From Lactarius indigo (Eukaryota > Basidiomycota > Agaricomycetes > Russulales > Russulaceae), in the NCBI GenBank assembly GCA_025766275.1, contig JAFKAC010000020.1, positions 310,001 through 374,000 of the forward strand: a stretch of 64,000 nucleotides of DNA, in the 5' to 3' direction. The position numbers and the translations under genes were made by a program. Below the pieces are notes generated by a model. That model was not told the DNA's origin. It saw only the letters and a program-made list of their open reading frames with translations, and made no database searches. Positions within the stretch are counted from its first letter, which is position 1. Each line of letters starts with the position of its first letter. Below are positions 38,696-62,298 of this stretch, in pieces.

Positions 38696-40114
38696 CTAGA
38701 GTGCTTCGAAGTCCATCAGGTCGTAGACATCATTGTCCACATCGTTGGCTGGAGTGCTTTCATGAGGGAGGGGGCATTGATGTTGGCGAAGGAAGTTGAA
38801 GGGACCATAGGCCCCACACTTGCGGCAATTTTCGTACTTGGGGCACTTGATTTCTTCGTGGCTGTTGCTGGTGAAACACTTGCAACACCACTGAGTGCGT
38901 TCTTCTGGGGCTGGCCAAAAGCACTGGTAGGGGAAGTGGTCAGTGCTAGAACACCTCCAGCAGTACTTCTGTTTCTGAGGACAAGCGAAGGAGAGGTGGT
39001 CTTTGGACTGGCACCTGTAACAAAGTCGGATGGTGCCAGTCTCCTTCTTGTTGGACCTGCGCTTGCGTCTTTTCTTTCTTTCTGCGGAAGGGCTAGGTCG
39101 TTCTGGTTCATAGTGGAGTCTTGGCATGGAGTGGTAGCGAGGTGGAGCAGGGGCAGGAATGGGGTGAACTCCGAAGGGGTGAGTCTCTTCTTCAGAAGGA
39201 GGAGGGTGTAGTGTGAGCCACTGGTCTGCAATTCGGACATAGGCCTTGTGTTCTTGTAGTCTCCTTCGGACACTGGTTAGTTGCATGTCCATGTTGAGGA
39301 GGTGTCTTTTGAGGGGCTCCATCGTCTTGTACAGGCCTTCAATCTCCTTTCGGAGGGCCTTCTGGTTTTGCAAGAATCGGTGAGTCCTGGAGATTTCTGC
39401 TGTGAGGCAGTCATCTCCCAGGTCTTCTAGGACTTCGTCAACTTGTCTGGCTGTGGGGGAAACTTTGTCAAAGTTCTGCATCTGGGCTGAGGTAATGGGG
39501 GGAGCTGGATTGTGGGGGTCATCGTCTTTGGGAAGGAGGAAGAGGGGGAGGCCATAGTGAGGGAGATTTTTGCCCATGGTGCCAATGACCTCTTCTTTGT
39601 TTTCACTGATCTTGATCCATTTAGCATCCTTTCGGATGTATGAGGTTGGGTCAGCATCGTTAGGGATGAGGAAGTGGACATAGTGGCTGCTCCAGGGGTC
39701 ATTCAGGAAGAAGGGGTAGCCAGGGTTGTCATCTTCTTCAGCAGTGATGTGCATCCTTTCATAATTAATGGGGAGTGTGTCCATGATTGGGTCATTAGCT
39801 ATTTCACTGAGGCGAGCTATAGTCACTCTAGGATCAGGGGGGGAGGTGATAGGTCGGTGTATCTCAGGAGTAGGGGGAGCTGTGTGTCCAGGAGGGGGAA
39901 TGTGAAGGGCTATTCCTCCTCCTTCTGTTTCTATGACGCTGGGCATAGTGGGATCGATGGGCTGTGGTTCCTGAATGAGCAAAGGCAAGGAAGGGGGTCG
40001 TGCTGGGAAGGGGGAATAGCCGGAGGAAGGTGTGACAGAGGGTGTTTCGTCAAAGGAGCCTCTTTCCATGGCACGAGCAATGAGGCGTTCTACAGAGGAG
40101 GAGCGAGAGGGCAT
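38696..40114 (-). CDS. C-terminal extension of Gypsy-2 Pol: HYVHF domain, coiled region, four zinc knuckles
   Basis: A 472-codon open frame. It lies in the same frame as pol, separated only by a TGA (40148-40150) and 11 sense codons, so it was probably the tail of Pol rather than a separate gene. A Pro-rich linker (20-110) leads to a domain starting HYVHF (about 144) and ending YGLPLFLLP (about 190), which resembles HYIHF...YGKPLYATP in Gypsy-1. A helical, charged stretch follows (about 225-300). Four Cys-His clusters lie near 368-450: CYRCQSKDHLSFAC, CWRCSSTDHFPYQC, CCKC...H...C and CRKC...H..C. Zinc knuckles normally sit in Gag; finding them after the chromodomain is unusual. It has no internal stop, although the adjoining pol has several. 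Confidence 0.75.
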   Translation of the reverse strand: MPSRSSSVERLIARAMERGSFDETPSVTPSSGYSPFPARPPSLPLLIQEPQPIDPTMPSVIETEGGGIALHIPPPGHTAPPTPEIHRPITSPPDPRVTIARLSEIANDPIMDTLPINYERMHITAEEDDNPGYPFFLNDPWSSHYVHFLIPNDADPTSYIRKDAKWIKISENKEEVIGTMGKNLPHYGLPLFLLPKDDDPHNPAPPITSAQMQNFDKVSPTARQVDEVLEDLGDDCLTAEISRTHRFLQNQKALRKEIEGLYKTMEPLKRHLLNMDMQLTSVRRRLQEHKAYVRIADQWLTLHPPPSEEETHPFGVHPIPAPAPPRYHSMPRLHYEPERPSPSAERKKRRKRRSNKKETGTIRLCYRCQSKDHLSFACPQKQKYCWRCSSTDHFPYQCFWPAPEERTQWCCKCFTSNSHEEIKCPKYENCRKCGAYGPFNFLRQHQCPLPHESTPANDVDNDVYDLMDFEAL

Positions 40115-40147
40115 AGTGAAGAAGCTAGTGGGAAAGGTGGTTACTGT

Positions 40148-43100
40148 TCATATTGTTACTTCCTTTTGTTTTAACCACTGTTTTGCTCCTTCGCTTCTGG
40201 GGTTGCTTTCAAAGTGTTCCTGAATAAGTTCTGGGGCGTTGAGGTTCTTTTCTGGTTCCCAGCTATTGTGTGCATCAGAGTATCCTTTCCACTTGATTAG
40301 GAACTGTAACTGGTTCCTGTGGCATCTTGTTTCTAGTATTTTCTTGACTTCCCACTCCTGTTCTCCATCTATCAGATCTGGGGGTGGCTCCATGAAGTTC
40401 TTTCCATGTATGGAGGTTTCTTTGTATGGCATCAAGAGGGACGCATGGAATACTGGGTGGATCCGCCACTGATGGGGAAGTTTTAGGGCATATGTAGTGG
40501 CGGAGATCTTCTTTGTGACCCTGAAGGGTCCATATCTTTTTGGGGCTAACTTGAAACTAGGGTGCGTTGTTTTCAAGTTCCTGGCGTCCAGCCACACACT
40601 ATCTCCTTCTGTGTGTTGTTCAAAATGAGAGGATCCTTTGTGGAGTGACTGTGCATGGGTAATTGCCGCTTGGGCGGTCCTTCTGGCTTCTTGGATCCGC
40701 TCCAGTCTTTCTTGTGTTCCTGGTACTGTGGTCGTTCTTTCTGGTTGGTGTACTCTTGGGATGTATCCAAGAATTAGCTCATAAGGTGCTTTTTTGGTGG
40801 TTGTGCTTGGCCAAGAGTTGTGGGTGTACTGTGCCAGTGGTAGTAGCTCTGTCCAGTTATCTTGTTGATGGTTTATGAACATTCGGAGGTACTGCTCTAA
40901 CCACTGGTTTGTTTGTTCTGATTGTCCATCTGTTTGTGGGTGGTATGCTGTGCTGATATTTTGTTCTATGTCAAGTACTCTGCATAGTTCTTTGATGAAC
41001 TTCGCTGTGAATCTGGGGTCTCTGTCGGAGATGACCCTTCTTGGTAGTCCATAGTGTGGCAGGACAGTTTTGGCATAGAGTTTTGCCACTCCTTCTGTGT
41101 CTATTGTTTCACTGCATGGGATAAAGAAGGCTGCTTTGGAACAGTCATGATCCATGATGGTGAGAATTGTGTCATTGTCTTCTGATTGGGGTAGTTTTGT
41201 GATGAAGTCTAGAGCGATGGTTTCAAAAGGGAGTGCTTCTGGGTTAGTCTTGATGGGGAATATCAGTGGTTTCAGGTTCCCAGGGAAGTTCTTGTTTGAT
41301 TGGCATGTGGCACAGCCCTTTACATATGCGGATATGTTGTCTTTCATGTTTGGCCACCAAAAGTCTTGTGACACTAACCACAAGGTCTTTGTTATTCCGG
41401 GGTGTCCAGCTGTTTTTGTATCGTGAAACAGGGAAATTACCCCCCTCTTTAGCAGTGTGTTGTCCACAACCACCAGTTTGTCACCTTTCCACCAGTGTTT
41501 GCCTTGTTTTACTAGGTGGAAGGGGGTGGCCCACTCGTCCAGAGTGTCTTGGTGGTCTAATTGGTGTGTCATGACCCAGTCATCTATCCTTATGGAGAGA
41601 GCGGAGTTTGCGAAGATAGTTGGGGTCAGGACCACCACATCGGTGTTATCTTCTGCTCCGGTGTCATGGTCAGGGCGTCTTGACAGGGCATCTGCATGGT
41701 TCTGGGGTCCAGGTTTATGGTGAAGTTTGATGTGATAGTCTGCAAGTCTGGGGATGTAACACGCCACTCTCCTATTGATTTGTCAAGGGTGGCGATAATA
41801 TTCTAGGTTTTTGTGGTCTGTAAACACTGTGATTTCGTGGGGGGACCCTAAAAGAAGGTGTCTCCAGTGTTCTAGTCCTCTGATTACTGCCAGGAGTTCC
41901 CTGTCATGGATGTCATAGTTGTGCTCCACTTCTGAAAATGATTTGGAGAAGTATCCCACAGCTTGTGGTTTGTTTCGGCTGTCTCTTTGTGTTAAGATTG
42001 CCCCTGTGGCGAAAGCGGAGGCATCTACTTCTAGTTCGAAAGGTTTGTCCATATCTGGTTGACATAAGATGGGGTCTTTGCACACAAGCGTGATGAGAGT
42101 TTCTAAGGCTTCTGCTGCTTCTTTTGTCCATCTAAAGGGTCCTTCTGATGTCTTTATTGTGTCCGTGATGGGTCTTGCTAAGTGAGCGAAGTTGGGGATG
42201 AAGGGTCGCTGATAACTTAGTGTCCCCAACACGCTTCTTGCTTGTTTGACTGACTTGATATCTCTTGGCCAGTCTTTTAGTCCTTCTACCTTCTTTGGGT
42301 CAATTTTGATCTGAGACCCATCGATGACGATGCCTAGGTAGTGGATCTTTCTTTGTTTGAACACACATTTCGATGCTTTGAGGAAGTAAGATTCCTTTTC
42401 ACAGGTTTCCAAGAATTCGTGTACAATTTGTCTGTGGCGCTCTGTATCTTCTTCTGTGGCTATCAGGACATTGTCCATATACACAAATAGTTCTCTGGGG
42501 TATTTGTCCATGAGTGGTCAGAGTATTCTGCTCATGGTTCTTGCAAAGGTGGCTGGTGCATTTGTGAGGCCGAAGGTCATAACTCGAGGGATAAACAGTC
42601 CCCTTGGTGTTTTGAAGGCTGCCTTCCACTGGTCTTCCTCTTTTATGTGGATGTTATGGTACCCCCATCTGATATCGAACTTTGAGAACAGTGTTTTCCC
42701 ATTTAAGTTGGTCAAGATGTCGGAGATGAGAGGTAGTGGATAAGTGTCTTTTATTGTCCAAGTGTTTAGGGGTCTGTAGTCCAGGATAGGGTGCAACCCT
42801 CCATCTGTTTCTTTCTGAAGAAGAAGGAGGAAGTGTAGGGGGAGCTTCCTTCATAGATGTATCCTTTTGCTATGTTTTCGTTGAGGTATGCTTTTAACTC
42901 TTTGTCTTCTTCTGGAGTCAAGGGGTAGATTTTACAATTGATCTTGTTAGGTGCATCTGGACGCAGTGTGATGGGATGGTCTTCCTCTCTTTCTGGGGGA
43001 AAGTGCTGTGCTTCTTCATCTGAAAATACTTTGTTGTGGCGCTGATATTCTTCTGGAATTGCGGTTTCTTTTACTGGGTCAAAGGTTGTTTTGGTTGCTG

Positions 43101-43239
43101 CCGCTTTTGCTTCTTGGTGTCGCTTTCTTCGGAAGCAGTATCCTCCTGCATCAGGAAAAATGGGATCCTGAAAATTTTCAAAAAGCGTAGAAAAGTTACC
43201 ATATTGGACAGATTTTGACAGATCACGCAAATTATGCAA
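40148..43239 (-). pseudogene. Gypsy-2 pol (RT, RNase H, integrase, chromodomain)
   Basis: The frame begins inside the RT lead-in (QHFPPEREEDHPITL). Breaks: a frameshift near 42,790-42,800 (between SSFFFRKK and HPILDYRPLN), a TGA at 42518-42520 (SRIL-TGA-PLMDKYP) and a TGA at 41783-41785 (YRHP-TGA-QINRR). The polymerase box reads YMDN instead of YMDD; a GAC-GAT to GAC-AAT change is CpG-type. RNase H (EVDASAFATGAIL), integrase (HPGITKTLW ... CATCQSNK; ALDFITKLP; SDRDPRFTA; GQSEQTNQWLEQ) and the chromodomain (LQFLIKWKGYSDAHNSWEP, near 40,290) are readable. The terminal TGA at 40148 leads in frame to the extension ORF. Confidence 0.9.
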
Positions 43240-45238
43240 GATTTTATATGGGGACCCTAATATTTCTGAAAATGTTTCATAAAATCGTTGAGAAACTGAG
43301 AAAAATGTGTGACTTTGTAAACTATGAAAAATTGTGAAAATTTAGAAAAAGACGAAAGTGCAGTAAACCTGCTTGATAGCATGTGTAAGTAGTCGGGGCA
43401 GAGAGAAATTCGCATGAGTTGGGGAAAGCAAGGAAGGGGGTGCAAGCGCGATATCAAAAAGTTGGGGAGGTGAGGAAAGTCAAGCATGAGTTCAGAGCTC
43501 AAGAATGCTTCTACAAAGCGCCAGGCAACAATTGCAACGAAGTGAGACCTAGGGTGGGAATAAGTCAGTAGAACAAAAACAGGAAGTGGTGATGAGAGCT
43601 GATGTTGAGGGATGAAGAGGTTGATATGCACGCAATGTGAGAGGGAAACCAAATTATATAAGTGCAAATCTGAGAGCTTTATCAACTGAACAGTGCCTAA
43701 ACCCGAATACGATCGAAAATAACAAGTTGAAAATTGTGATGAAGTAGTAAAGTGAGCAGAAGGCTGTAGGTAGGAAAGAAGTCGACAGACTCAAACACAC
43801 GGCTGACGCAAGGTAGAGAATATGAGTCATAAATGAAATCGGGGAGTGGGTAAGCAAAGTCACATGGCCGAACGACAGTGCCAGAGGTGGTGCCAGAGGC
43901 CCAGAGGTGACGACAACGCGCACTATAAGTACAAACAAGGTGTCAGTGAAAGTGGGGTAAGATCCAAGAAATAGTGAGCGCACCTATGCCTGAGACAAAG
44001 AGCACGAACTAGAAAGATTGGCAAAACGAGTTTGAGAGGCAACAACATGACGTTGATCTGCCGAGGGCAACAACACAAGCAACGTGATGGATACGAGGCG
44101 GAAGGTAAGGGAATGGTGGATGGCAGACGCACGGCAGGCCTTTTGAACCAGGGCCAAGTGCGAGATCGAGGGGCAGCAACGGATTGAGAAGGGGTTCAGC
44201 AAGCGAGAAGGCCCATACAAGCAAGGCTCGTAGCACATAAGGTGACCAAAAGACAACTGTAAAGATTGTTTGGGAGTGAGTACAAGTGCAACCGTTGATG
44301 TTCGCTTGGGTGCCCTCAATTTAGATCTGCCCTGACAAAGCGTCACAACGATCATGTGAGATATAAGTATAAGAACGATTGAAACTTGAGGAAAGTGGTA
44401 GTTTATTGGATGCCAGACCGAGCCTTACATATGTCATGTATTTGTACGTAAGGGTGGTCGGTGTCGAAAATGCTAAGTCAAGAACCATGAGGCAAGGTGA
44501 TGAAGGTAGGGAGAGTAAAACAAAATGGTCCAAGTCCTGTGGATATCAACGGAGAATGAAGATGGAAGCTTGGGGGGAAGACTATTGTAGTATCTGTTGT
44601 CCCTGGGACAGGCAGTGCTGTCGACATGTGCTGTATTGAAGCGAGTGTCAAGGCAAAAGTGGGAGGCAAGTATCAAAAGGGAGCAAAAGGAATGCAGACG
44701 AGTTGAAAGGAACGTGGGTGGCTGATGGTGAAGTACAATCGAAGAGATGCGGTTGGCATTGACAAGGCATACTGTGAGAAAGAACAACGGATAAGAATTT
44801 AAAGGGCAACAAAAAAAAATTGGGCGCACCTTTGTTCAAGGCAGAGCACAACTCTAGACCAATCACTGGCCGGGGGCGTAGGCATGAATAATATTCCAGG
44901 GTTTTGAAAGAACCAATCGAAAGAAAGCTCACAAGGCGGGGAATGGTAAGGGTACTGTTCCTCAGCGGGACTTTTGATGACGATGTGGACAAGGAGTTGA
45001 CTGGAATTGGGTGGTTGATTGGCGGTGGCTACCGCTGTCGGAATTATTGAGCATTTTTGATGTGGAAAGGAACGATGAAAGGTGAGATGAGATGATGGGA
45101 AGAGAAATGGGAAGAGAAAAGAGCGGAAAAAATGAGGCGAGAAGGGTGATCTACAAGACACATGACATTCTGAAATCATGTGCTGAGCTGACAACTGAAT
45201 TCGTAAGAGGAAAGACAACGGTTCACACATAAAAGTAG
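43240..45238. other. Dispersed non-coding repeat, two related segments
   Basis: Between the broken end of Gypsy-2 and the end of the Plavaka gene. Long Ser/Leu/Pro-rich open frames on the minus strand show no domain. Segments at about 43,970-44,010 and 44,820-44,850 share a GCGCACCT(A/T)TG motif with each other and, more loosely, with the hAT interior at about 16,530. Another piece (44,440-44,490) matches 16,145-16,200. I read it as one repeat family with at least three partial copies. Confidence 0.4.
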
Positions 45239-46969
45239 CTAAGATAAGTCTCGATAAAGGTGTCTATCTGTAAATGGGTTTAGATAGAAGGTCTTGCACA
45301 TCTCCAAAATGTTGCTACTCATCCATGATGCAGGAGCAACTCTACCAAACTTCAGGTATAAATGGACGCTCCGAAAAATGTTGATTACTGGTATGATACT
45401 GGCGGGTTTAGTACCATCTGGAAGAAAACAGCGCGAGATCTTATGTAGCCCAGAGTTATGCTCAGGTTCCCAAGAAAATGACGTAAACCACTTGACATAT
45501 GCGAGGTGCTTGGGAATGCTCTGCCCAGATGGAAACAACCGTGCACATTCAGATTCTGGAAGCGAAAATACCACATGCACCTGTCCAATACGCCGATCCT
45601 TCACTCCTGCCTCAACTCCAGTACCACTGTTGATGAGTACTATATCGTGTTGGGCAGGAATGAGCTGGTCCTTTTTGTTCTGTCATTCGGGGTGGCAGTG
45701 AATGATATCAGCAGTGACGAGTTTGCCGGTCCAAGGATCTTCTTGAAGGTATTTGATATTGTGCCACACCAGAAAGCGACGGATTGAGAGATGGACGTCA
45801 TTTGCCTCATCTTCCAGCTGGGAATAAGTGAGCCCTGTATGCGTCAGTCCAGCGACATATCACCCGATAGCTGCGCGAAAGTGGATTGCACCATAACTTT
45901 CTTCTAATCGGTCAATTGGAGCAGAGGCGACCGTCGGACGAATTGCCATCTTCAAAATATGACGATTGTCAAGTCCTGGAGGGACCCAATTGACGGACTT
46001 CGGTGCAGGGCACCCATCAAGTCGCCACTGAATATACTTGGTATGACGAGCCATCTTCTCCTTCCGCTCTAGCCATAGTGCCATCTGAGGGAACTCGTCC
46101 TTGTGATTGGTTGCAGCATAGGCGTCCTTCGCAAGGTCGATGTGCAACCGTTCGGTATACTCAGTATTGAAGTTGTCAGTGGTCCCAAAAAGTTTTATCG
46201 AACGGCAGTAATGTTTTGTGAAGTGGAACTTGGGTATGTTGAAGTTGTCCTGAATGCCGAGGGAGACGAAGATGTGCTTGTTGTCGTGAAATGATTGGAG
46301 TGCTGCATCCATCTTCTGTAATGTTTTGGTTGTGTGAACTGGGTATTGTGCGAGATAAAGAAAGTCCAACAATTTGCGTAATGCACACAAGGGCACTGCT
46401 ATCTAGTCTATCTGGAAGTGGAATGTCGAGTACCAAAGCCAGGAGAAAGTGACAAATCTGACCATGCTCGGTACCGGAAACACGAGAGAGACTGCTAATA
46501 CCCTTCAAGAACAATCGGGTGTTGTGATTTGGTGGGAGACGACAGCAGCGAGCATCAATTTCAGCAGCCCCAAAGATCTCTGTTGTCCAATGGATCGCGT
46601 GCTTCATTACTCCCTGATATAGTTGGTGAAGGATGTCTGGTGTGATTGAGCGATAAACATGGGTGTATGGGAGATCCTTCCAAAATGGCTCCGTAACGGG
46701 CTTGACACCAAGCTCTTTGCATGACTCGAAAAAGGCCGCCGGATCATCATCGAAGTTGTGGAGTGTGTCGAGGAGAGTGTGCAATTCACGCCAGCCAGTA
46801 GGGATCTCTGGACCTGTGTCTCCAAGTTTGTCGCGTGGCTCAGGGCACTGAGCACATTCACCAGTCTTCGTACAGGTGATGAGTACCTGCTCGGGATAAT
46901 CCCTGATGAAGCAGGCGTATATTGGGTGACAGCGCCGACTAATGCCATCTGCGCTGGCCATTGTGACGC

Positions 46970-47823
46970 TGATACCCTAAACCGTCGCTAGACGCAAGAA
47001 CGACTGGTAAAGGAGTAATATTGGGTTCGAGAAGTCGGGGAATATAGGACCGATAATCCGGCCGATGGCGACTTTAACCGAAGGCGCACCGACGCGGGAC
47101 CGAACGAGCCGAAGCCGACCGGGGTGAGAGCGATGTAGTCTTAACGCGACGCAGGGCTGCGAATAGCCGAGGTATAGCTGAATACGCACACATGGGTGCT
47201 TCGCGAAATCAAAATAGAATAGATGTCGTAGATAATCGAATAGTAGGATATGAGCGTATGAATCGAATGAGGTCGCTATGGGCTCCCCCAAAGGTTTTTT
47301 GTTCTTGTACCTGTGGTATAGAGCTATTTATGTGCTGCCGCTCGCCAACCGAATCCGCACCTCGCCGCTTTTCCCTTGCTGAACGTCCATCTTACTCTCC
47401 TGCCTTAAACCCACGCCGGTCTGATCCGCTCTTCTCTGGGGTGTCGCCTTACCAACCCTAGGTGCTGCTTTGCCTATTCGTGCCATGGCCGCGCCTGTGA
47501 TTCTGCTCGGCCGCTCCGGTATGTCGCTATTCGCCATGTTGGCCCTGATCGGTTTCTGGGGCTTTCACATGTTCCGCGCTAATATAGGCACCGTCTCGTA
47601 CCCCGCGCTGGGGCCGCACCCGTGATTGCAGCAGTAGGCTACCGTTCGCATATGCGGCTAGAATATTTGGGCGTCTCGGCCCATCACCACGGGCCGCTCT
47701 TCCCGCCGCCGAGAGTGACCGATCGCAGTACTCTAGATGGGCCGGTTGGGCCGGTCTGCCGCATATTGTCGTATTAGCTTAGATCTGCGAAAATTAATGC
47801 TTAGTGGCGCGCCGGGTGTATCA
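46970..47823 (-). repeat. Element Y 3' LTR
   Basis: 854 bp. In the minus-strand orientation it follows the purine tract AAGAGGGGAAA (47834-47824). Matches 58151-59004 apart from twelve CpG-type transitions. Confidence 0.95.
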
Positions 47824-48004
47824 TTTCCCCTCTTGGCTGAGCTTCTGACTGTCCTCAGTCAGTCGGCGCAATAGCATCGCGTGGTAGAAGTCGTCGGGCG
47901 GTGCCGGTAGTGTGAGAACAGTCCGCGAGTCCGCCATACGTTGTCGTCGATATTGTTATCATCGTCCTTTCGCCGTTTTTCTTCCTTGAGTCGATTCTTC
48001 TAAC

Positions 48005-49521
48005 ATGTCGCAAAAATCCCGTGTTTTTTCATTCGCTAAATTGTCGCTCTTGCGTCTTCGCCCCGAGTTTGAGAGGACCGATTTGGATGCCGCGTCGGCC
48101 AACGAGCTAGCGCAGACCTTTTCGTCGGCTCTGGTGAGTACTTGTCGGCTTTGATCCGTGCTGATCATGGTTGATCGGGTTGACAGGAACTTGTCGTTTC
48201 GTCGGCAATCGAGGCCGGCGTAGATGTTGGCGTCGATCAGGAGGTGGACACTCTTGTTGGCGCTGCACGCAGCTGCCTGCTTCTGTTCGCTTCGGCGGCT
48301 TGGCTTGAACATTCGCCTCGTCTTGTTGCTGGGAGTGAGGAGCGGCTGGGCTCCTTGTTGGCGCCGTCGGTTCCGCCTGGGTCGGCCGATATACCCGGTG
48401 ACTATGCGCGGCTCGCCGAGTACTGCTGACAGGTGGAGGCTGGTACTTTGTCTCGCGCCGAGTTCGAGGCCCACCGTGCGGCCATTCTCGCGGCCGACAC
48501 CAGGCCCGACATGCCGCCATCGCTGCCGGTTCCATTGCCGCTCTTGTGGTCGTCCGCGTGCCCACTCGGCCCTTCACCCGTCGGCGGTTCTCCCGCCTTC
48601 GGCTTATCAGAACTCTTTTCGCAGAGTTCCATCCAATCTCCCGCTCTTCGTGCGGCTGGGGCGGCGCCTTCCCCGTCTGGTGCCGCCGCCGCGCTTTCTG
48701 AGGAGCCCGCGGTCGCTTCCGGGTCGGGGACCGGTCGCGGCGTTAAGCGCAGTCGTACGCCCGAATTGATGGATGTTACGTTGATCGCTGGGTGGCGGCG
48801 GGTGCGTTTCGGTTGGCTTCTCTTGGGTGTTGGCTAACCTGTCTTCTAGTGCGTGACTTGCATCAAGAGCAAGGTGAAATGCGCGCCCGTTGTCGGTAGT
48901 TTGCCGCCGTATCCGTGCTGGCGGTGCGTTCACGGGGATCGCGCGTGTGTTCGGGCGCCGCTTCTGCGCCGTCGCCGCCGTCGGGCAGGCGCCACCGCGC
49001 CTCCCCGTGTTCCCTCTCCCGGTGTCGCTTCGCCCGGTGTTGCTTCGCCCGATGTTGCTTCGCCCGGTGTTGCTTCGCCCGGTCCCGCGCCATCTGGCAG
49101 TGCTCGCGCCGGCTCGTTCTCTGGCAATGCTCGCGCCGGCGCCTTTTTTGGTCCCCCAGAGGACTGTTCGGGCGTCGAGCTCGCCGCGACGATCGTGTTT
49201 TATCGTGCTGAGCTTGCTCGCGCGATGGCTTCTTGTACGTTGATCGACGAGAATATCATTTTCCTTCGCTTCCAGTTGGCCAGCTATCTTGGTATGATGG
49301 TTGAGCCCGGCACTTCTCTCGGGCAGCCGCCGCCGAAACGGCCGCGAACGCGCGCTTCGTCGAAGGGTAAGGAGCGAGCGATCGACGTTGACGCACTCTC
49401 GGATGATGATGCCGAAGCGGCTGACGAGGATGAAATTGAAGACGGGACCGAATACGAGTATGAGGAGGAAGATGCCGAAATGGACTGGGCGGGCATTTCC
49501 GGGGATCTTGGTGCTGAGTAA
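48005..49521 (+). pseudogene. Element Y antisense gene A: helical domain, Zn2Cys6 cluster, acidic tail
   Basis: Exons 48005-48133, 48187-48801 and 48850-49521 (introns 53 and 48 nt, GT-AG, phase 0). About 471 codons with one TGA at 48427-48429. The TGA falls between AEYC and QVEAGTLSRAEFE, which aligns ungapped with AEFRDLLAAGVISFNEY of gene B, so I read it as a point stop (CGA to TGA) and not an intron. Exon 3 opens with CVTCIKSKVKC, 11 residues, then CWRCVHGDRAC: CX2CX6CX11CX2CX6C, the fungal Zn(II)2Cys6 DNA-binding pattern with Lys-rich loop. A fivefold VASPG repeat (15-bp DNA repeat, about 49,025-49,085) and an acidic C-terminus (DEDEIEDGTEYEYEEED) follow. The layout is that of a DNA-binding regulator; targets are unknown. 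Confidence 0.75.
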
Positions 49522-49707
49522 GCCGCGGTCGCCCGATGTACCTTTGTAGAACATTTGTAAATAGACTTTCCGTGTTGCCCTGTGCCTTGCGCTTTTTCTT
49601 GCGCTTTCCCCCCCTGAAAAAATTAATTTGGCTGTCCTCAGCCGCCACGTCGGGCCGGCATCTCGGCGCCGGCGATACTTTTTGTCGCGCTTGCAGTGTG
49701 AGTAGGG

Positions 49708-50368
49708 ATGGAACGTTTTCTCCCTTTGCGCTCGATGCCCGTTCCTTCGAATAACTCTAGTCTGGTGGACTCGAGCGATGGCGAAAACCGTCACGCATAT
49801 GTGCGTGCGATTGCGCAGCTGGCCGTGCTTTCCGAGCGGTGGTTCGGTCTTCAGTGCCGCCCCGCAGATGTTGCCGACTTCCTTCAAGATTTCTATCGCG
49901 CTTGGGTACGACGCTTCTTTTCGCTTGTCTTCGCTAGATGCCTAACTTCTCCAGGAATATGCCAAGCGCATGGCCGCCCGTGCTGGTGTTCATAGCCTCG
50001 CCGAGTCCGCTCGGGAGCTTCGGACCATCATCGAGGAAGCTGCCGCGCCTCATGCCGAGCTGGAATGGCTTCTATTATTCCCTGGCGTTTTCGAGGAGCA
50101 CCAGTCGCGGCTCATTCGGTATGCCGTCGTATTCAGCCGCGCTCAGTCCGCCATTATCGCGAACATGATCCATGGACCGGGGGTATCTGCGCTTCGGGAC
50201 CCGTACGTCTTAGCCGTTGCCGAGTTTCGGGACCTTCTCGCTGCGGGCGTTATCAGTTTCAACGAGTATCAGTGGCAGGAGGAGCAGCTCGGTCGGGCTA
50301 GTTTACTGGCTGAAACCGCGCGGCGAAGCTCTTCGGCGACCGAGGGGGTATCGCATGATGCGGAGTAG
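49708..50368 (+). CDS. Element Y antisense gene B, helical-domain protein
   Basis: Exons 49708-49905 and 49955-50368 (49-nt GT-AG intron, phase 0); 203 residues. No known family recognised. The N-terminal part has FLQDFYRAW just before the intron; exon 2 is Ala/Glu/Leu-rich and looks all-helical (AELEWLLLFPGVFEEHQSRL). It is a clear paralogue of gene C, with the intron at the same place and matching motifs (W|EYAKRMAARAG vs W|DYLRLMADAAN; EFRDLLAAGVISFNEY vs EFESLRAAGDISREDY). Gene A has the same C-terminal motif of this domain. It has no zinc cluster. Confidence 0.7.
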
Positions 50369-50534
50369 TGTTCCTTGTACCTGTCCGGCCTTTGTAATTG
50401 GCGTACTACAACCTGTTATTAAATGGTGTCGCTTGTGTCGATCTTCGTCCATTGACATGTGAAAAGAGTCTGTAGCGAGTTGTCTCGCATTAAAGCGGCT
50501 TGTTCGCTGTGAGCCGGTCCCAACGTTCCCTGCC

Positions 50535-51321
50535 ATGGCTGATACCGGTCGTGACTCTGATGCCTACTTGCCCGAGGGTTTGCTCAAGGCTGCCTTCGAT
50601 TCCGCTTTGACTAGTTTCTTTGTGTTTGGCGAAACTTGGTCGCAGTGTCCTCGCCAGGCGCCACAGATCGCGTCGTGGCTACGCTTGTTCCAGGGGTCGT
50701 GGGTACGTCGCTAAATCTATGTGTTTTGTTCATTCCATGGTGATTGGGCACTTCTAGGATTATCTTCGGCTGATGGCGGATGCTGCTAACGATGGCGAGA
50801 TGGGGGCTGACGCATATGCCCTGCATTCGCTTGTTCGGACCGAGGCCGCACCATTTGCGGATGTTAATTGGCTGCTCAAGTTCCCCATGGTCACTGAGCA
50901 CGTTCGAAGCCGAGTGTTGCTGTATACGGGGGTCTTATGTCGCACGCAGAGCGCTGCTCTTGAGGAGTGTCTCGCCGGAGCGCTGGTTAGCGAGCAGGTC
51001 CCGGATGTTTATGATCGTGCCGCTATCGAGTTTGAGTCGCTTCGGGCTGCCGGGGACATTTCGCGCGAGGACTATTATTGGTACCTCTCGAAGTTGCGAT
51101 CTGACCGGCTGACGGTGATTTTCAAGCGAGGGTCGCTCCCGAAGATCATGAGTCTGGGCCGCTCGCCTCGCGGTATGCTTTGCCTATTTCTTTTTCGCCG
51201 CTTTATGCCTAATCGCTTTGCTGTAGAGTTGCACGTTGGTATTGGCGCCAAAGGTTATTTTGTTGCTGGCGCGGAAGACGGTGCAGAGGACGATGGTGGT
51301 GAGACTGGGGTAGGTGTCTAA
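50535..51321 (+). CDS. Element Y antisense gene C, paralogue of gene B
   Basis: Exons 50535-50702 and 50758-51321 (55-nt intron, phase 0); 243 residues if read straight through. A further GT-AG intron (about 51,173-51,226) is possible and would keep the frame. It shares with gene B the sequence around the intron, NWLLKFPMVTEHVRSRVLLY (gene B: EWLLLFPGVFEEHQSRLIRY), and the EF..L.AAG.IS..(D/E)Y motif. It ends with a short acidic tail (AEDGAEDDGGE). Unknown function; presumably acts together with genes A and B. Confidence 0.7.
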
Positions 51322-51679
51322 GGACTGTCGCGTTGGATCGTGAAGGAGCGGTGGCGCTGGTATACCCGGAATTTTGGTAGCGAGCTTGTAGCAGCCTCCT
51401 GCTGTACTGGAGAAGTTGTTTATCTCGATGTGAGAGTCCCCGTGGGCGTTGGCTATTGCGGAAGTTTGGTGTTTTAGTTGGCCCGGTACTGCGGAAACAG
51501 GCTTGTTAGGCCGGCATGTGTGTGCTCGGTGCGCTTGGGGTTCGGCCTCGTGTAGCGGGTATATCGCATGTTATTTCACTGTTCGCATAGGATTAAAAGC
51601 AATAATAAAGTAAGACTATAGAAAATTAAATTCCAGAGATGGCTCTTTCGCAGCCCGTGTTTTCGCGCTTATGGAATGT
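51322..51679. other. Gap between convergent cassette and integrase
   Basis: About 360 bases between the end of gene C and the end of the integrase frame on the other strand. An AATAAA-like AATAATAAAG at about 51,600-51,610 could end plus-strand transcripts. Nothing else seen. Confidence 0.45.
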
Positions 51680-54600
51680 TCACATGTCAAGTTCTTCAGC
51701 TGCCTTGGGTATATCTTCGTCGTCTTCGCTCTCCTGGGTGCCTTGCCATGGGTCCACATCCGGTTCGCCACTGGCTTCCAATTCGCACAACCGAGCGACC
51801 GAGACGTCCAAATGTTGTTCTAGATCGGGTATGTCCATATATTCGCGGGCGAAATACGGCACCACTCTGAAGGCTGCTATGGTGCTGTGTAGTAGTGTGC
51901 CGTCGAGTTCGCATACTATGTAGGCCCCTCCTTTGTTTCGCGAGACCACTACTAGTGGTCCGAAGTAGCGCGGCCGCATTTTGCGATTCAGCGCTTTTTC
52001 TATCGCGGTGTTGCGGATTAGGACTAGAGCGCCTCTTCTGAAATCGTAGTCGCAAATTGTTGCCGAGTGTGCCTTCTCGAACCGAAGGGCCGCGCGATTG
52101 CGGTGTTCGTGGACTCTCGCCTTGAGCCGGTCTAGGTCTTCCGGTCGCTTTTGTAGAGCTACCGCCCGCCGGGCGATGAGGTCGGTTGTCGCTAGTATTG
52201 AATCAGGTGGGGGCGATAGATAGTTTGCTTCTACGATGTCGAAGGGTAGCAGTGGGTGAACGCCGGTCGCCGCGAAGAATGGCGAGCAGCCGAGACGCTT
52301 CCGCGGCGTAACGTGCTCCGACCAGAATACGGAATATGTCGCCTGCGGCCAGCGGTTTTGCTCACCGTCGACCGCTTTAAACAGCGCTTGCCGCACGTCG
52401 AAGTGCGCGTGCTCTACTATGCCATTCGCGCGAGAGTTATATCCGCTTATCCTAATATGCGTCACGTGGTACTTGCGTTCCAAGTGGCCGAGCGCTGCGA
52501 CGAAGGGCTTGCCGTTATCTGAGATGATTTCTGTCAGCGTTCCCCATCGGCATAGTACATCTTGGAATATCCAGTCGCCGAGTGCCTGAGCTGTTTCTTT
52601 TCGGAGCATTCTAAATTCTGGGTATCCGGTCAGAGAGCAGCGGCCTTGTACAATGTAGGAGTAGCCGGCGGCACGCGGGAGGTGCATTGTGTCCATATAC
52701 ATCTTCGCAAATAAAGGTGCGGGGGTGGCGACCACCAGTGGTATTGAGATTTGCTGGGTCTGCCGGGTCTGGCAGACATGGCAGGTGCGCACGTACCAAG
52801 CGATGTCATCGCCCATGAATGGCCACCAGTACCGTTCTATTAGTAGAGCTCGGGTCGCGTAGAAGCCACGGTGCCCAGTATCGTCGTGGGCTGCGTGTAT
52901 CGCTTCGATGCGTCGGTGCCGATACAGGACTCTCTGGTGGGCCCCCTGCGGGTTTCACTTCCAGAGTAGCCCGTCGTCTACGAAGAATCTTGCTGCGAAG
53001 CGCACTAGAGCGGTATAATCTTGTTCTGTCATGCCTTCCGGTCGCTCCAGGAAGGTCAGCCAGTCGTGCGCTGCCGCTAGTTTTTCGTCGGCTCGCGCGG
53101 CCGCTTTCGTTCGTGGGATTAGATCGTAGTTCGGCTCATATGGAAATGCGTCGGCCATCTCGTATGGTCGCTTTTCTGGTATGTTCATGCTTGCGATGGT
53201 GTATAGAAGTTGGTTCGTGCGAGGCGCCGCAACCGGGTGGTTAACCATATGCATGAAGCCATATAGGTTATCAATCCAATCTTCGAATTCTTCTTCGCTG
53301 CTTTCTTCCTCCTCTTCTTGTTCATCATCCAGCTGTACTGGCCGCCGAGAGAGTCCATCCGGTCCGTGCTGCTTTCCGGGGACGTGGCGCAGCTCAAAAT
53401 GAAAGGTTAGAATTGATACTATCCAGCGATTGACGCTGGCCGATGGTGCGATGTCTGGATTATTGAGCATGCCTTTGATATACCTGGCATCTACTTCCAC
53501 TATTAGGTTGCGCACGCCGACGATGAATATTTTGTAAGCGCGCAGTGCCCTATAGAGGCCGTATAGTTCTAGCTTCGGTTGTGAAAAGCGGTGCTCTCGG
53601 TCATTTAGCGGCAACGAGCCAAAGCGTGCGTAGTACCGCTTTTTCGGCATTGCTGGGTCGGCCTGGCAGAGGTAAAACCCTACGGCTATCGGTGAGGTGT
53701 CCACGGCCAGTATTACCGGTGAGTCGGATTGGTAGTCAATCGGCCGAAGCGCCGGCGAACTCAAGAGGGCCTGCTTTAAATCTTCTTGGGCCGCAACTTG
53801 CGCCGGTCCAAATTCGAATGGAACGCCTTTGCGAGTGAGATTGATGAGCGAGTTGGCTCGTTTCGCGAAGTTTTGTATGAATATCCTGCACACTCCTACA
53901 GTGCCGAGGAATGCGCGAACTTCAGATAGGTCTTTGCACGGTCCCCAGTTAACGATCTTGTTCACGCGGGCCACCTCTGGTAGCCTTCCGCGCGGTGTGC
54001 ACCGGTGTCCAACTGCAGTTATTTCCTCTGCGCAAAGTATTGATTTTAGGCCGCTAAACGTGCCGCCGCAGTACTTGACTCGCTGGACTACTCGATTGAG
54101 TCCTTGGAAGTGCTCCCAGATAAATCGGCGGATGCCGGTATTTTCTAATATGCGTTCTTCGGTTCCGTCGGCTAGTTCGTACCGACCGGCCGGTCCGCGA
54201 ATCGGCACATCATCGATGTAAGGAACCGTGACGTCTGGGATCTCTGGCTGCAATATGTATGTGACGTCGTCGTGAAATATCGGGACTGAGTTCGTCCATC
54301 CCATGGGTAAAGTGACCAGTCGCAAGGCGCCGAATGGTGATTGGAAGGTTGTTAAATCTCGTGATTCTGGTGATAAGCCTCGTTCATCGTAGCCGACATA
54401 TAGGTCTAGCATGCCGCCGCATGCTCGGCCGGCGAAATGCTCGCCTATCTGATCAGTAAATGGGGTGACGCCGGCGTGCTTGATTGTAACTTTGTTAAGC
54501 GGCTCCAGGCTGTGGACTATGCGCAGTGATTTTCCATCTTTCTTTACGACGCAGAACCACCGAGATCGGTATGAAGAATTCGATGGCTCATATACGCCGG

Positions 54601-55288
54601 CGTCGATCTTGCATTTTATTAACCGGCAGACTTCATCGTAGATTCCGGGTGGTATTGGTATGTTTCGCTGAGCCCAAGGCTTGTGCGGGATCGTAGGGAT
54701 TTCGATCGGCGGAAAGAAGTCTTCGCGGAAGTGTCCACGCTCAGCATCTTCCCAGGCAAATGCTTTATTCTGGATGCACATGAATTCGTGCATTAGCTTG
54801 CATTCTTCTGGTAATAAGAAGGTACCGGCGTGCGCGAGGTCAAATTGCGTTTTGCGTTCACTAGTATATCAGCCGGTCGGTCGGAACTCGCTTGGTTTAG
54901 TGGGTAGTGCCGGTAGGTCTTGTAGTGGGTCGCCGGTTATTTCGCGGACTATTCTGAACCGGCTTGGGAGTTCGGTTTCTATCGGTCTGATTTTGAGTGC
55001 TACGGGTTTGTATTTCTTGCCGAGGTATATTGTGGCCGGTGCTTTTGCGTCGGCGAAGGCGATGCTTTTGCCTTCCTGCCGGGCCGGCTGATCGCTGCTG
55101 TTAGATTCCGAGGTATTAAGGTAGGTGCTTAGGTTGGGGTTTTCTGAATCACATAGAGAGATGTACGCCGCTGCAATGTCTTGTTGTGTGGTATTTGCCG
55201 GTAGCGGCGCACAAGCTTCGATTGTCGCTTCCTGACTTGATTGATTGAAATTTAATATTATTGCGAGCTCTCCTTGGTTTGTTACCAA
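51680..55288 (-). pseudogene. Element Y RT-RNase H-integrase
   Basis: One frame from about 55,300 to 51,680, stopped by TGA at 54869-54871 and 52955-52957. RT: KCKIDAGVYEPSNSSYRSRW, LPMGWTNSVPIFHDD and the catalytic box as YIDD (VPYIDDVPI, near 54,210). RNase H: ILAVDTSPIAVGFYL, then HVPGKQHGPDGLSRRP. After the second stop comes the integrase: ERYWWPFMGDD, CHVCQTRQ, MDTMHLPRA, ISDNGKPFVAALG, HIRISGYNSRANGIVEHAH, closing with an acidic tail. Both TGA codons occur where Arg fits (PTG-TGA-YTSER, LWK-TGA-NPQG). There is no chromodomain, unlike Gypsy-1/2, so Y is a separate Ty3 lineage. Confidence 0.9.
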
Positions 55289-55299
55289 ATCATCGACGC

Positions 55300-56700
55300 T
55301 TAAAAATCCGAGTCTTGCGATTGTTCGCTTGTCTGCTTCTTTCTTCGCTCGGCAAATCGGTTGCTGCCACGCGGTACCATCGGCACCGTTGCCGTTTTCC
55401 CGGTGTTCGGGTCGAGGATCGTTATTGTCTGGTCTTCGTTCCGGTAGTTGCGCACCACGGATTGGGTCAGTATGTCGAATGGCCGTCCGAGTAATATATC
55501 ATAGGCTGGCGAGCGCAGTATGTGAACTTGTAGATAGAGGGTTATTTCGCCGACGTGGAATGGTACGTTGCGCGCCAGTCCTAGCGATTGATTTACACCG
55601 CCGTTCACCGAGATCATGTTGAGCCGTATGCTCGGGTCGTAAGGGATCGCCAGTGCGTTGCACACTTCTTCTGACATTGCGACTATTTGGCAGCCGGGAT
55701 CTAAGATGGCCTCTATCTTTTCTGATCCGTCGACTACCGGTAAGATTGCGCGTAGGGCATTTGATTCGGTCGCAACTTTGATCGTATTTTGCGATCCATC
55801 GTCATCGGCCGGTCGCGCCTTTAGTAACGCCTCATACGGGTCGGCTATTATTGTCGCGTCGGCCGGTGGAGTGCGCTTGGCGATCGAGAATGCCGCCGGC
55901 ATATGCGATTCTGTCGATTGCTTCAGCTCCTCCTTGGTACTGTCTTCTACGCTTTCTTGGGCGTTAACACGAGCAACGCGGCGCTTTGTCGTTACTTTGT
56001 TGACTTGGGCCCGCAGTTCTGGTGCTAACGAGAGTAGTTCTCTTTGCGTCACTGTTACTTCGGCTTCCATCATCCTTTCATAGACTTTTCCTGCTGCCTT
56101 TTCGTTGTATATGGCCGTATTTGATGTATAAGCGCGCTCGCTTTTGCGGTCGTTCGCCGTATTTGTTGCCGGGGTCGGTCCTAGAGTAATCGGTTCTGCT
56201 TCTTGCGTTCTGGCGAATGGATGTTCCTTTATTGTCGCCGCAACCTCGGTTGTTGCTTCTATCGTCTTTTCTAGGTGTGGCGGTCGTTCCTTGCGATGCG
56301 ACTGGCTTTCTTGCTCTTCTTCTGAGTCTTCTTGCTGGATGCGGGCAGTCGGCATATGTTCGAACCTGGTCCTGGTCCTTCCGCCCATCCTTGGTATGAA
56401 GCCTCTTCGAAATGCATATACGCCTGCTTGTCCTGGTTCTGGGCATTCTTCTGCAAAGCGGACTGTTTTCGCCGTTCGCGCTTCTGCGGATGCCGTCGGC
56501 CTTGACATTTCGAGTAACATTTGTGCCGCCGCTATTTGTCCTGGATTTTGCCTGTGGTATTCGTCTATGCGGTCGCGCAGCCATGCTCCAGTGATATGCC
56601 GAGGGACCACGGCGCCTGATGGTAGCACGATTTTCCCTTCTGCGCTACGCTTGCACTTGCCGAGTCGCATATATTCGGCCGCTACTTCGCACTCTCGCAT
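55300..56700 (-). pseudogene. Element Y gag end and protease
   Basis: It continues the gag frame after the TGA at 56773. It begins with a CCHC knuckle (CNFCGTPGHFMREC, about 56,720) and a linker rich in Glu/Lys/Thr. The aspartic protease reads ILDPGCQIVAMS (55,715-55,680; DPG for DTG/DSG), with HILRSPAYDILLGRPF as second block. It ends at TAA in GAT TTT TAA; the next frame (LGFLSVDDLVTNQ) is -1 relative to it and overlaps the T5 run. That could be single-codon -1 slippage at a stop, or a lost T. Confidence 0.8.
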
Positions 56701-56772
56701 GAAGTGTCCTGGCGTTCCGCAGAAGTTGCACTTGGTGGTTGGTTCCCCTATCGGCCTAGGATTTCCGGCATT

Positions 56773-58038
56773 TCAGGCCTTCTCGCTTGAGTTTTGGATT
56801 TCTAGCGCGTTTTTGAACATTTCGCCTAGTGTCGCGACCGCGGTTGCTAGCGCGGTTTGGATCTCTGTCTTTATCTCTGTTGCCGGTGGGAGTGTCACGC
56901 TTGCTGAAGTTATGCTAGAGATCGCGACCAGTGCTCGGCCCTGGAGTACATAGCTTGCGGCATCATACAAGTCTTCTAATCTGTAGGGGTCTTGCTGGTT
57001 GTGGTCTGGCATCTTTAGCTGTAGCCTTTGCTTGACTTGTTGTTCCATATCCGGCTGTAATCCTCGCATGAACGCTCTGGTCTGCTCGGCCTGCGACATT
57101 CTGTTTTTGCCGATCAAGTATTTGGAGATTACTTTGAATTGTCGGTAGTATTCGCCGAGTTCCAGTTCTGAGACTATGCCGATGCAGGCGCGCTGTCCTA
57201 CGAGCGTATCCAGGTGTAGGATTGTATGAATGTCTTCCGAGGATCCGGGGTATAGCTTGTAGATCTCGGCTTTGTATTCTTCGTATGTTTTTGTTACGTC
57301 CGTTAATGCATCGCTTGTCTTCCATACTCTTTCGGTCGCGGCTGTCGTAAGGTATTTGAGTGTGCCGCTTTTCTTATCTGCGTTGGTCGTTACTGTGTGC
57401 CTATCGTATAGGGCTTCCACTTCGGCAAAATATCGGCCAAGCTCTTCTGGGTGCTCACCATCAAAACTAGGTGCTGACCGCTCGCCTCTTCCGGGTAAAT
57501 CTGCAAGGGGCATCCTTCTGACGTTGACCGCTGCTGCTGGGACGGGCTGGTTTATTCTTGCTGGTGGTAGTCTTGGGGCCGGTTGCGGTACAGCCTGTGT
57601 TTGCGTTGGGTTCTGGTTTATCGAGGGTACTACGGGGTTTATCGCTGTGTTGCTTTGCTGAGGCGGCGCCGATTGCGCTCGTTGGTTACTACTGCCAGGC
57701 TGCCGGTTATTATCTTCTGTCGCTGATGCTGTGGTGTTCGCTGGTTGGTTAACACTTTGATCGGCTGCTTCCTGTTCTTCGGCCGATAACGCTTCTGCCT
57801 GCTGTTGTTGTGCTAGGATTTTCGCTCTTGATCTTGTTGTTGTGCCGTGGCGCGCGGGTAACGGAGCCGAGTGACTTGACAGGATGAGGTCGACTTCCTT
57901 TTCACTATTGGTTTCTTCTTGTCCCGAGTGACTAGATGAGGGGTCGCTTTGTTCGCTACTAAGGCTGCTAAGGGGTGTTAGGTCTTCGGGGCTAGGATAG
58001 CTTCCTGGAATTGATTGAGTTGGGTCGTATCCGGCCAC
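56773..58038 (-). CDS. Element Y Gag, 421 aa up to TGA
   Basis: ATG at 58038. The first 180 residues are low-complexity (Ser, Gln, Pro, Asn). The capsid-like part follows (RSAPSFDGEHPEELGRYFAE ... SGTLKYLTTAATERVWK ... FMRGLQPDMEQQVKQRL). It ends at TGA 56773-56775. The frame continues 24 codons later with the zinc knuckle, so TGA is either a CpG mutation (A-CGA-NAG) or a leaky stop. Confidence 0.85.
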   Translation of the reverse strand: MAGYDPTQSIPGSYPSPEDLTPLSSLSSEQSDPSSSHSGQEETNSEKEVDLILSSHSAPLPARHGTTTRSRAKILAQQQQAEALSAEEQEAADQSVNQPANTTASATEDNNRQPGSSNQRAQSAPPQQSNTAINPVVPSINQNPTQTQAVPQPAPRLPPARINQPVPAAAVNVRRMPLADLPGRGERSAPSFDGEHPEELGRYFAEVEALYDRHTVTTNADKKSGTLKYLTTAATERVWKTSDALTDVTKTYEEYKAEIYKLYPGSSEDIHTILHLDTLVGQRACIGIVSELELGEYYRQFKVISKYLIGKNRMSQAEQTRAFMRGLQPDMEQQVKQRLQLKMPDHNQQDPYRLEDLYDAASYVLQGRALVAISSITSASVTLPPATEIKTEIQTALATAVATLGEMFKNALEIQNSSEKA

Positions 58039-58129
58039 GATTAATTCTTCTAGTAGGCTTCGCTGTTCTCGCCTTCTCGGCAGTATGTTAGTTATTTAAT
58101 GCGCACGCAAACCTTCTATATTCCAACTT

Positions 58130-58146
58130 CCCCACGTTGGCCACCA
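58130..58146 (-). promoter_or_regulatory. Element Y primer-binding site
   Basis: On the minus strand TGGTGGCCAACGTGGGG begins four bases after the 5' LTR. TGG would pair with a tRNA CCA end. I cannot say which tRNA. It is a different priming mode from the self-priming Gypsy-1. Confidence 0.6.
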
Positions 58147-58150
58147 GAAA

Positions 58151-59004
58151 TGATACCCTAAACCGTCGCTAGACGCAAGAACGACCGGTAAAGGAGTAAT
58201 ATTGGGTTCAAGAAGTCGGGGAATATAGGACCGATAATCCGGCCGATGGCGACTTTAACCGAAGGCGCACCGACGCGGGACTGAACGAGCCGAAGCCGAC
58301 CGGGGTGAGAGCGATGTAGTCTTAACGCGACGCGGGGCTGCGAATAGCCGAGGTATAGCCGAATACGCACACACGGGTGCTTCGCGAAATCAAAATAGAA
58401 TAGATGTCGTAGATAATCGAATAGTAGGATATGAGCATATGAATCGAATGAGGTCGCTATGGGCTCCCCCAAAGGTTTTTTGTTCTTGTACCTGTGGTAT
58501 AGAGCTATTTATGTGCTGCCGCTCGCCAACCGAATCCGCACCTCGCCGCTTTTCCCTTGCTGAACGTCCATCTTACTCTCCTGCCTTAAACCCACGCCGG
58601 TCTGATCCGCTCTTCTCTGGGGTGTCGCCTTACCAACCCTAGGTGCTGCTTTGCCTATTCGTGCCATGGCCGCGCCTGTGATTCTGCTCGGCCGCTCCGG
58701 TATGTCGCTATTCGCCATGTTGGCCCTGATCGGTTTCTGGGGCTTTCACATGTTCCGCGCTAATATAGGCACCGTCTCGTACCCCGCGCTGGGGCCGCAC
58801 CCGTGATTGCAGCAGTAGGCTACCGTTCGCATATGCGGCTAGAATATTTGGGCGTCTCGGCCCATCACCACGGGCCGCTCTTCCCACCGCTGAGAGTGAC
58901 CGATCGCAGTACTCTAGACGGGCCGGTTGGGCCGGTCTGCCGCATATTGTCGTATTAGCTTAGATCTGCGAAAATTAACGCTTAGCGGCGCGCCGGGTGT
59001 ATCA
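58151..59004 (-). repeat. Element Y 5' LTR
   Basis: 854 bp, partner of 46970-47823; followed on the plus side by the ACGC target duplicate (59005-59008). Confidence 0.95.
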
Positions 59005-59572
59005 ACGCCATTCCTGCCAGGTTTGATGATCGGCGAAAGGATTTCTGACAAACAAGCGTGGTAAAGGTTGATAAGGCAGCGTCGGCGAGAGGCCTTACTG
59101 GTGATGTGGGGAAGTCAAGATGTTGGAAGGTAGGCAACGAGAACATATGCACGCGACGAAGGACGGCGACGGATCTCTTTTGGAATGTTGCCGATTGTCA
59201 TGTACAGTGGATAGGCAGACTTATTCCGGAATAAAGTGATTTGAGTCTTGTCACTTGAGAGAATAATAGGAATGATTGTTTTTCCGGCACCTGCATCTCG
59301 GTCTAACGCTTTCTGTTCAAGCTGATGTGTTAGTTAGATTATATAGAATTGAACGTGTGACTTACTTGTGTGGACCACCACCATTCTCTGGTGTGCATGT
59401 CGTGGTACATCCTCAGGTCGCACTTCTCGTCGACATAGTGGCGTTCGGGGGCATAGACAAGGTAGGGGGAAAACTCTGGATCACGGTACAATGCCTGCAC
59501 GCATTCCATGATGTCTCAGAAGTAGACATTGAAAACCTCACCTCCCAACTCTACTCCCATTCGTTTAAAACT

Positions 59573-60183
59573 TGATGAACAGCAAACATAGAGGGCATAC
59601 TCACAGAGACAAGGTAGACTGTGGTGAGATATGCTAGAGTGCTGGAAGCAGAGGTGAGACAGGGATCTTGCAGGTAAAGCAAAGGGAGTCTGGCACACAA
59701 CAGTGAGGAACTGATGTTACATTGGAGAAGAGGGAACATACCTGGCACACAACAGTGAGGAACTGATGTGGACCAGGAGCGTACAAGCCTACTACTTATA
59801 CTATACAGGAGAGTGACACTAGTACAAGAGAAGTAACACAGGGTCACAAAGTACAAGAGACGTTGTTCTACATGTGGGACAAAAGAGTGTGCTTATGGAG
59901 AACAAGGAGCGCAGAACAAAGAGAGTCTAGAAGTAAATGACATCATAATGATATCATGATAAAGATAGAACAAAGGAAAGTACAAAGGCGTTGAATACAA
60001 CGCAGAGTCTGGATCTATGATATCATAAGGTACAGTGATGTCATACATGACGCAATGATAAGTGCTAGATTGTACAGATCAAATGTAAGTAATCTACAAG
60101 TCCAATTAATCTAATCTAAAGCAGTCCATGCTGCAAGTCCGGTCCGTGTGAGCCGCTAAGTGCACAGGGGTCACTTATCAACA
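59573..60183 (-). repeat. LTR-X solo LTR, copy 2
   Basis: 611 bp, on the minus strand TGTTGATAAG...TGTTCATCA. The perfect 5-bp duplication is AAACT (59568-59572, 60184-60188). It lies inside a Plavaka exon. Both LTR-X copies contain a 27-bp direct repeat (CATCAGTTCCTCACTG then TTGTGTGCCAG), the first followed by GTATGT. Confidence 0.88.
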
Positions 60184-62250: not shown

Positions 62251-62298
62251 TCTCAGCCCTCAATAACAACAACTATTCCATGCAGATGCGTCGCCGTT

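Follow-up and report, generated by a model that had tools for sequence, protein, structure and literature searches.

Three intron-bearing genes antisense to gag-pol in a Ty3/gypsy-type retrotransposon of Lactarius indigo

Why would a long terminal repeat (LTR) retrotransposon carry, on the strand opposite to gag-pol, three genes that still contain introns, and what could their products do for the element? The question is raised by 64,000 nucleotides of the Lactarius indigo genome (assembly GCA_025766275.1, contig JAFKAC010000020.1, positions 310,001 to 374,000 of the forward strand), hereafter the window, whose first letter is position 1 of all coordinates given without a contig. An element that we call Y lies on its minus strand at 46970-59004, delimited by an LTR pair and a target-site duplication. 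Between the integrase and the 3' LTR of Y, the plus strand carries three genes, A, B and C, directed opposite to gag-pol. This arrangement had been proposed in a first-pass annotation made from the letters of the window, and is confirmed by the LTRs, the Pfam domains and the gene coordinates. We conclude that the A-B-C cassette is a stable, fixed part of Y, always antisense, and that its protein frames are under purifying selection in young copies. We favor, at about even confidence, the reading that this antisense set was acquired by a lineage of Ty3/gypsy type and regulates the element's own transcription.

The cassette and its genomic copies

Gene A consists of exons at 48005..48133, 48187..48801 and 48850..49521, separated by introns of 53 nt (48134..48186, phase 0) and 48 nt (48802..48849). 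Gene B has exons at 49708..49905 and 49955..50368 and an intron of 49 nt (49906..49954). Gene C has a first exon at 50535..50702, an intron of 55 nt (50703..50757), and a second exon with the 3' end of the gene at 50758..51321; after 51171/2 it continues to 51321 either unspliced or via a possible further intron at 51173-51226. The proteins would be 456-461 amino acids long for A (in five genomic copies), 203 for B, and 194 for C up to the possible further intron. The third exon of A also contains in-frame 15-bp repeats (49003-49098), the number of which differs among copies.

The first-pass annotation had proposed looking for the cassette in other copies of Y, and it recurs in antisense orientation in nearly all of them. 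In the source genome (90.3 Mb), to which all copy counts refer, all three genes match one common set of 21 Y loci. B is matched in all 21, C in 19 as a whole and in 2 in pieces, and A in 18 as a whole and in 3 in pieces, and the strand of the cassette is opposite to that of the integrase in 21 of 21. Thus, among the 22 Y loci defined by an integrase at least 84% identical in some part, 21 hold all three genes. The remaining locus, on contig C35, carries a single 3.3-kb deletion: similarity to Y breaks off at window position 47974 and resumes at 51284, so that A, B and C are gone except for the last bases of C, and the absence of the cassette there is secondary. A count of LTRs gives the same picture, with at least 16 pairs flanking an element, 15 of them with the cassette and the other being the C35 copy; this is a lower bound, taken from 40 scored LTR matches of 53 candidates. 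None of A, B and C was found in the decayed copy C151 (integrase 63-68% and gag 75-84% identical), the integrase of which runs into other sequence in the 4 kb read. Five contigs (C285, C234, C212, C231 and C260) have a single LTR match and no match to Y gag or integrase, and are perhaps solo LTRs.

The protein frames show purifying selection in young copies. We considered 14 copies as young (on C113, C135 twice, C244, C2, C33, C226, C1, C157, C101, C240, C219, C79 and C4). Among these, pairwise ratios of nonsynonymous to synonymous substitution (dN/dS) are 0.32 for A (13 copies), 0.36 for B (14 copies) and 0.29 for C (13 copies), and 0.47, 0.50 and 0.41, respectively, when corrected for base-change class and CpG context; all of these values take in changes after insertion, which are expected to be neutral. 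The ratios are not near 1, the value that the first-pass annotation had named as telling against the cassette. Left out of this comparison were C79, C223 and C133 for A, C223 and C133 for B, and C79 and C133 for C; C79 has inserted sequence where the start of A is expected, and its A start was not read. A per-site test, in which each variable site is counted once and observed amino-acid changes are compared with those expected, gives 0.67, 0.60 and 0.55 for the true frames of A, B and C in young copies (P = 0.0022, 0.019 and 0.015); the two remaining forward frames range from 1.00 to 1.71. In each gene, the ratio of one antisense frame, which shares third positions with the true frame, is lowered as well. 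With all copies included, the ratios are 0.75, 0.73 and 0.79 (P = 0.0016, 0.027 and 0.12), and weakening of this kind is expected if old copies decay. Part of the integrase in the young copies, from a control set of 18 copies, behaves like the cassette, at 0.61 for shared sites (P = 0.18) and 0.48 for single-copy sites (P = 0.00057). B has no stop codon in any of the 14 young copies. The cassette is more than a chance association, because all three genes occur together in one set of 21 copies and because reading them in a wrong frame gives results unlike those of the true frames.

The splice sites are kept as well. GT and AG are present at both introns of A in 18 of 18 copies, and at the intron of B and that of C in 19 of 19 copies each. 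In this comparison, as in the per-site test, C133 was left out throughout and C216 was left out for gene C.

By eye, C-to-T and G-to-A changes are numerous, and frequently located at CpG, in the copies on C216, C266, C271, C287 and C133 and in the A gene of the window. These changes suggest methylation-linked decay of older copies, or decay resembling repeat-induced point mutation.

Relationships, protein features and age

B and C are clearly paralogues by sequence comparison (hhalign expectation value, E, 1.2e-16), and both have a phase-0 intron after a tryptophan. The first-pass annotation had noted this common intron position, and can be extended: the first intron of A is also in phase 0 and falls at the aligned residue of the B intron ('ALE' of A against 'AWD' of B). 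Its proposal that all three genes arose by duplication holds well for B and C and weakly for A, which gives E values of 0.73 against B and 0.01 against C and, in Smith-Waterman alignment, exceeds all 300 shuffles against B only. A thus appears to be weakly related to B and C, and the shared intron position helps this assignment. The motif EF..L.AAG.IS..(D/E)Y, said to be common to the three, resembles the Pfam domain SHOCT, but remains below the Pfam cut-off (14.4 against 27 bits in the A of copy C244; the lowest E value among 11 members is 0.0072).

A is the protein that most resembles a regulator. Its third exon encodes CX2CX6CX11CX2CX6C and an acidic tail, as had been noticed from the letters, and this six-cysteine spacing is the canonical one of Zn2Cys6 regulators. 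The six cysteines are invariant in eight motif sequences: one Y copy, two older loci described below (L060 and L066), and five orthologue models, these being five of the seven that have the whole motif. The Pfam domain Zn_clus matches six of eight motif fragments (best E 0.00063) and eight of 14 members of the A family at E values up to 1 (best 0.011); no other regulator domain was matched in A in Pfam. The identification as Zn2Cys6 that the first-pass annotation had made is thus supported by spacing and conservation, but not by the Pfam score of the window copy. The order of parts in A is N-terminal helices, a disordered stretch (both modelled in an orthologue), the cysteine motif, a helix, the basic stretch KRPRTR...KGKER, and the acidic tail. 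The helix after the zinc motif is predicted in the orthologue to be 44 residues long, with a predicted local distance difference test (pLDDT) score of about 50-55. This layout resembles that of Gal4-type regulators, which share with A the motif, KVKC within it, a following helix (predicted in A) and an acidic part. Unlike in those proteins, the motif of A lies in mid-protein after a helical part and is below the Pfam cut-off. An orthologue of C is modelled as a small protein of seven helices (mean pLDDT 70.7).

The cassette is probably older than the present copies of Y. Three decayed loci (L060, L066 and L090) contain A, B and C in the same order, and their introns begin where those of Y do: after FYPLW in B, after YHSW in C, and past the ELMD stretch in A, in three of three loci each. 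The six cysteines are kept in L060 and L066, and L090 has a stop codon at one of them. L066, on contig C270, is the only one of the three with an adjoining integrase, which is 66% identical to that of Y and on the opposite strand from the cassette. In L090 (C277:179500-184500), the decayed A-B-C set has no integrase of its own at the expected place. In two more distant elements, with integrases 47% and 48% identical to that of Y, the cassette was not found in about 5 kb downstream of the integrase; they were read from a group of some ten relatives whose integrases are 43-54% identical. Together with the regulatory reading, and with the same even confidence, we favor a gain of the cassette, at its place between integrase and 3' LTR, by a retrotransposon lineage of Lactarius-like fungi, earlier than the divergence of Y from the older family with the 66% identical integrase.

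Outside Lactarius, no homologue of the cassette was found at E 0.001. The searches gave 6, 2 and 13 matches, all in Lactarius, with the best 7991 candidates scored in the search that gave 13. Orthologue models come from L. deliciosus, L. sanguifluus and L. pseudohatsudake (13 models for A). Adjoining locus tags (EDB89DRAFT_1904800 for B and 1904801 for A; EDB89DRAFT_1911645 for C and 1911646 for A) place the genes side by side there too, and A is fused with B in at least four gene models of other Lactarius species.

A proposed regulatory role and its alternatives

We postulate that the cassette would be transcribed inward from the 3' end of the element and then spliced. A distance of 181 bp separates the start codon of A from the inner end of the 3' LTR, and the promoter of A is therefore probably in or next to that LTR. 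A would be a nuclear zinc-cluster DNA-binding protein and B and C two helical partners. Jointly, the three could adjust transcription of the element, probably by damping or timing sense transcription, like HBZ of human T-cell leukemia virus type 1 (HTLV-1). The introns would persist because the genomic RNA carries them reversed and unspliced; they would not be removed in copying, and the proteins would be made from integrated DNA alone. The first-pass annotation had explained intron survival by antisense placement, and this fits the conservation of GT and AG and the identical intron places in the older loci. In a fuller form, to which we incline more tentatively, the cassette is a permanent spliced antisense regulatory set, composed of a zinc-cluster factor and two paralogous helical partners, with introns kept across element families and host species. 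It would form an HBZ-like circuit whose proteins come only from integrated DNA, since only there are the introns readable in splicing orientation.

Short palindromes with 4-nt centers precede each gene: CTGACTGTCCTCAGTCAG upstream of A (47845..47862), GGCTGTCCTCAGCC upstream of B (49630..49643) and GCGAGTTGTCTCGC upstream of C (50475..50488). Those of A and B have CTGTCCTCAG in common, a string without a further occurrence on either strand of the window, and the core GGCTGTCCTCAGC upstream of B is conserved among the 20 copies listed. Across the whole cassette, hairpins of comparable size are about as frequent as expected by chance, and the palindromes are possible candidates for control sites.

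Several observations weigh against a regulatory role of this kind. The window's own A is interrupted by an in-frame TGA in exon 2 (48427-48429), found also in copy C33, with intact A frames present in other Y copies; stop codons occur in 2 of 13 young copies of A and in 1 of 13 of C. The P values for selection are modest for each gene, and that for C with all copies included is not significant (P = 0.12). Zn_clus scores 11.8 bits in the third exon of A in the window against a Pfam cut-off of 21, and the whole six-cysteine motif is present in only 7 of 13 orthologue models, the other 6 lacking parts of it. The zinc region and the long helix are modelled at low confidence (pLDDT about 25-55). 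The best PDB profile matches of the motif are proteins without a zinc cluster (E 0.11), with LEU3 at E 1.8. Paired CGG sites, finally, are not enriched in the LTR (21 against 14.4 expected, P = 0.15).

The proteins might instead serve a later step, such as bringing the integration complex into the nucleus or selecting the integration site, with A tethering the integrase to DNA. The DNA-binding-like motif and basic stretch of A would suit such a role, C as modelled from its orthologue could be a small helical scaffold, and the antisense product of maize Grande is reported to be nuclear (PMC7264820). However, a protein required in the particle should be encoded on the sense strand, and we consider this explanation unlikely.

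A little less probable still is that A, B and C act on the host, countering silencing by, for example, DNA methylation or RNA interference and so keeping the element active. Host silencing pressure is plausible because older copies seem, by eye, to be enriched in C-to-T and G-to-A changes and the LTR pair of Y differs by transitions only, but searches of Pfam, PDB and BFVD revealed no similarity to a known anti-silencing protein.

It is also conceivable that the antisense RNA itself acts, as double-stranded RNA with a silencing or regulatory effect on the element, with the proteins incidental; antisense transcripts of plant elements are discussed as such regulators (PMC7264820). We regard this as improbable, since the three protein frames show a deficit of amino-acid changes that is absent from the other forward frames, since kept splice sites together with frame constraint are unexpected for a function of RNA only, and since the cassette does not overlap pol. 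Although LTR elements are well known to capture genes, passive cargo, whether host genes picked up accidentally or an independent element inserted into Y, is very improbable given the presence of A, B and C, in this order, next to a 66% identical integrase in an older family, the purifying selection in young copies, the lack of a second LTR pair or an inverted repeat of at least 30 nt in 44000-64000, and the lack of a homologue outside Lactarius at E 0.001.

Relation to known antisense genes and structure of Y

The first-pass annotation knew of no described element with such a set, which is too strong a statement for the class. The plant elements Retand, Grande and RIRE2 contain an antisense open reading frame (ORF), aORF-3R, the product of which is predicted to bind DNA (TRP28 domain) or is located in the nucleus, and for which a regulatory role has been proposed (PMC11963269, PMC7264820). 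Like aORF-3R, the cassette of Y lies between pol and the 3' LTR on the opposite strand, is present in most copies of the family and is conserved. Unlike in Retand, the TRP28 domain (PF04195) was not listed at E 1 in Pfam for A, B, C or their orthologues, which belong to other protein families, and Y has three genes in a row, two of them clear paralogues, with a Zn2Cys6-like motif. The word 'intron' is absent from the available text of those two papers, where splicing comes up in connection with sense messages and as a feature to be sought. In fungi, the brtn gene of Boty in Botrytis cinerea is an antisense extra gene of an LTR retrotransposon (PMC8365987, PMC7264820); it is one gene, according to the title of Zhao et al. 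2011, against three in Y. HBZ of HTLV-1 is antisense and spliced, starts in the 3' LTR and inhibits activation of transcription (PMC1459196); it is a single gene for a bZIP protein, and we claim a likeness in layout and no sequence relation. Extra genes called ORF3s have become fixed in families of bdelloid rotifer LTR elements and are expressed from spliced messages, but encode other types of protein (env-like, GDSL and DEDDy; PMC5408684).

Thus, an antisense extra ORF at this place is of a known kind, and what is new in Y is three intron-bearing genes with a zinc-cluster-like protein, a combination that we did not find for a mushroom element in the literature searched. According to two papers, antisense extra ORFs in LTR elements are of unknown function (PMC7264820, PMC11963269). 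Y combines three genes, a DNA-binding-like motif, kept introns, a measured selection signature and many recent copies, and makes it directly testable whether retrotransposons encode regulators of their own transcription on the reverse strand. The cassette also illustrates clearly that introns can outlast many rounds of reverse transcription.

The assignment of Y to Ty3/gypsy rests on its LTR pair with target duplication and on the order of protease, reverse transcriptase/RNase H and integrase, the reverse transcriptase being recognized by eye; Asp_protease_2, RNase H and Integrase_H2C2, all over the Pfam cut-off, stand in Ty3/gypsy order. The 3' LTR (46970..47823) and 5' LTR (58151..59004), each of 854 bp on the minus strand, have 12 differences, transitions without exception, and are flanked by the duplication ACGC (46966..46969 and 59005-59008). 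A sequence resembling a polypurine tract, AAGAGGGGAAA (47824..47834, minus strand, by eye), adjoins the 3' LTR. From the 5' LTR inward on the minus strand follow a gag-like ORF (56773..58095, Retrotrans_gag below cut-off), a frame with a zinc knuckle (below cut-off) and the aspartyl protease (55300..56772), reverse transcriptase with YIDDV and RNase H (52955..54868), and integrase (51680..52954, H2C2 over cut-off and the rve core below). RVT_1 gave no match in the frames of Y at E 1 in Pfam. The internal frames of the window copy are interrupted, with protease, RNase H and integrase in separate open frames.

Y is inserted in sequence at 45860-46976 and from about 59400 onward that resembles a broken gene of transposase type. 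A second, separate gag-pol element can be made out by eye from the ORFs at 38696-43341 on the minus strand.
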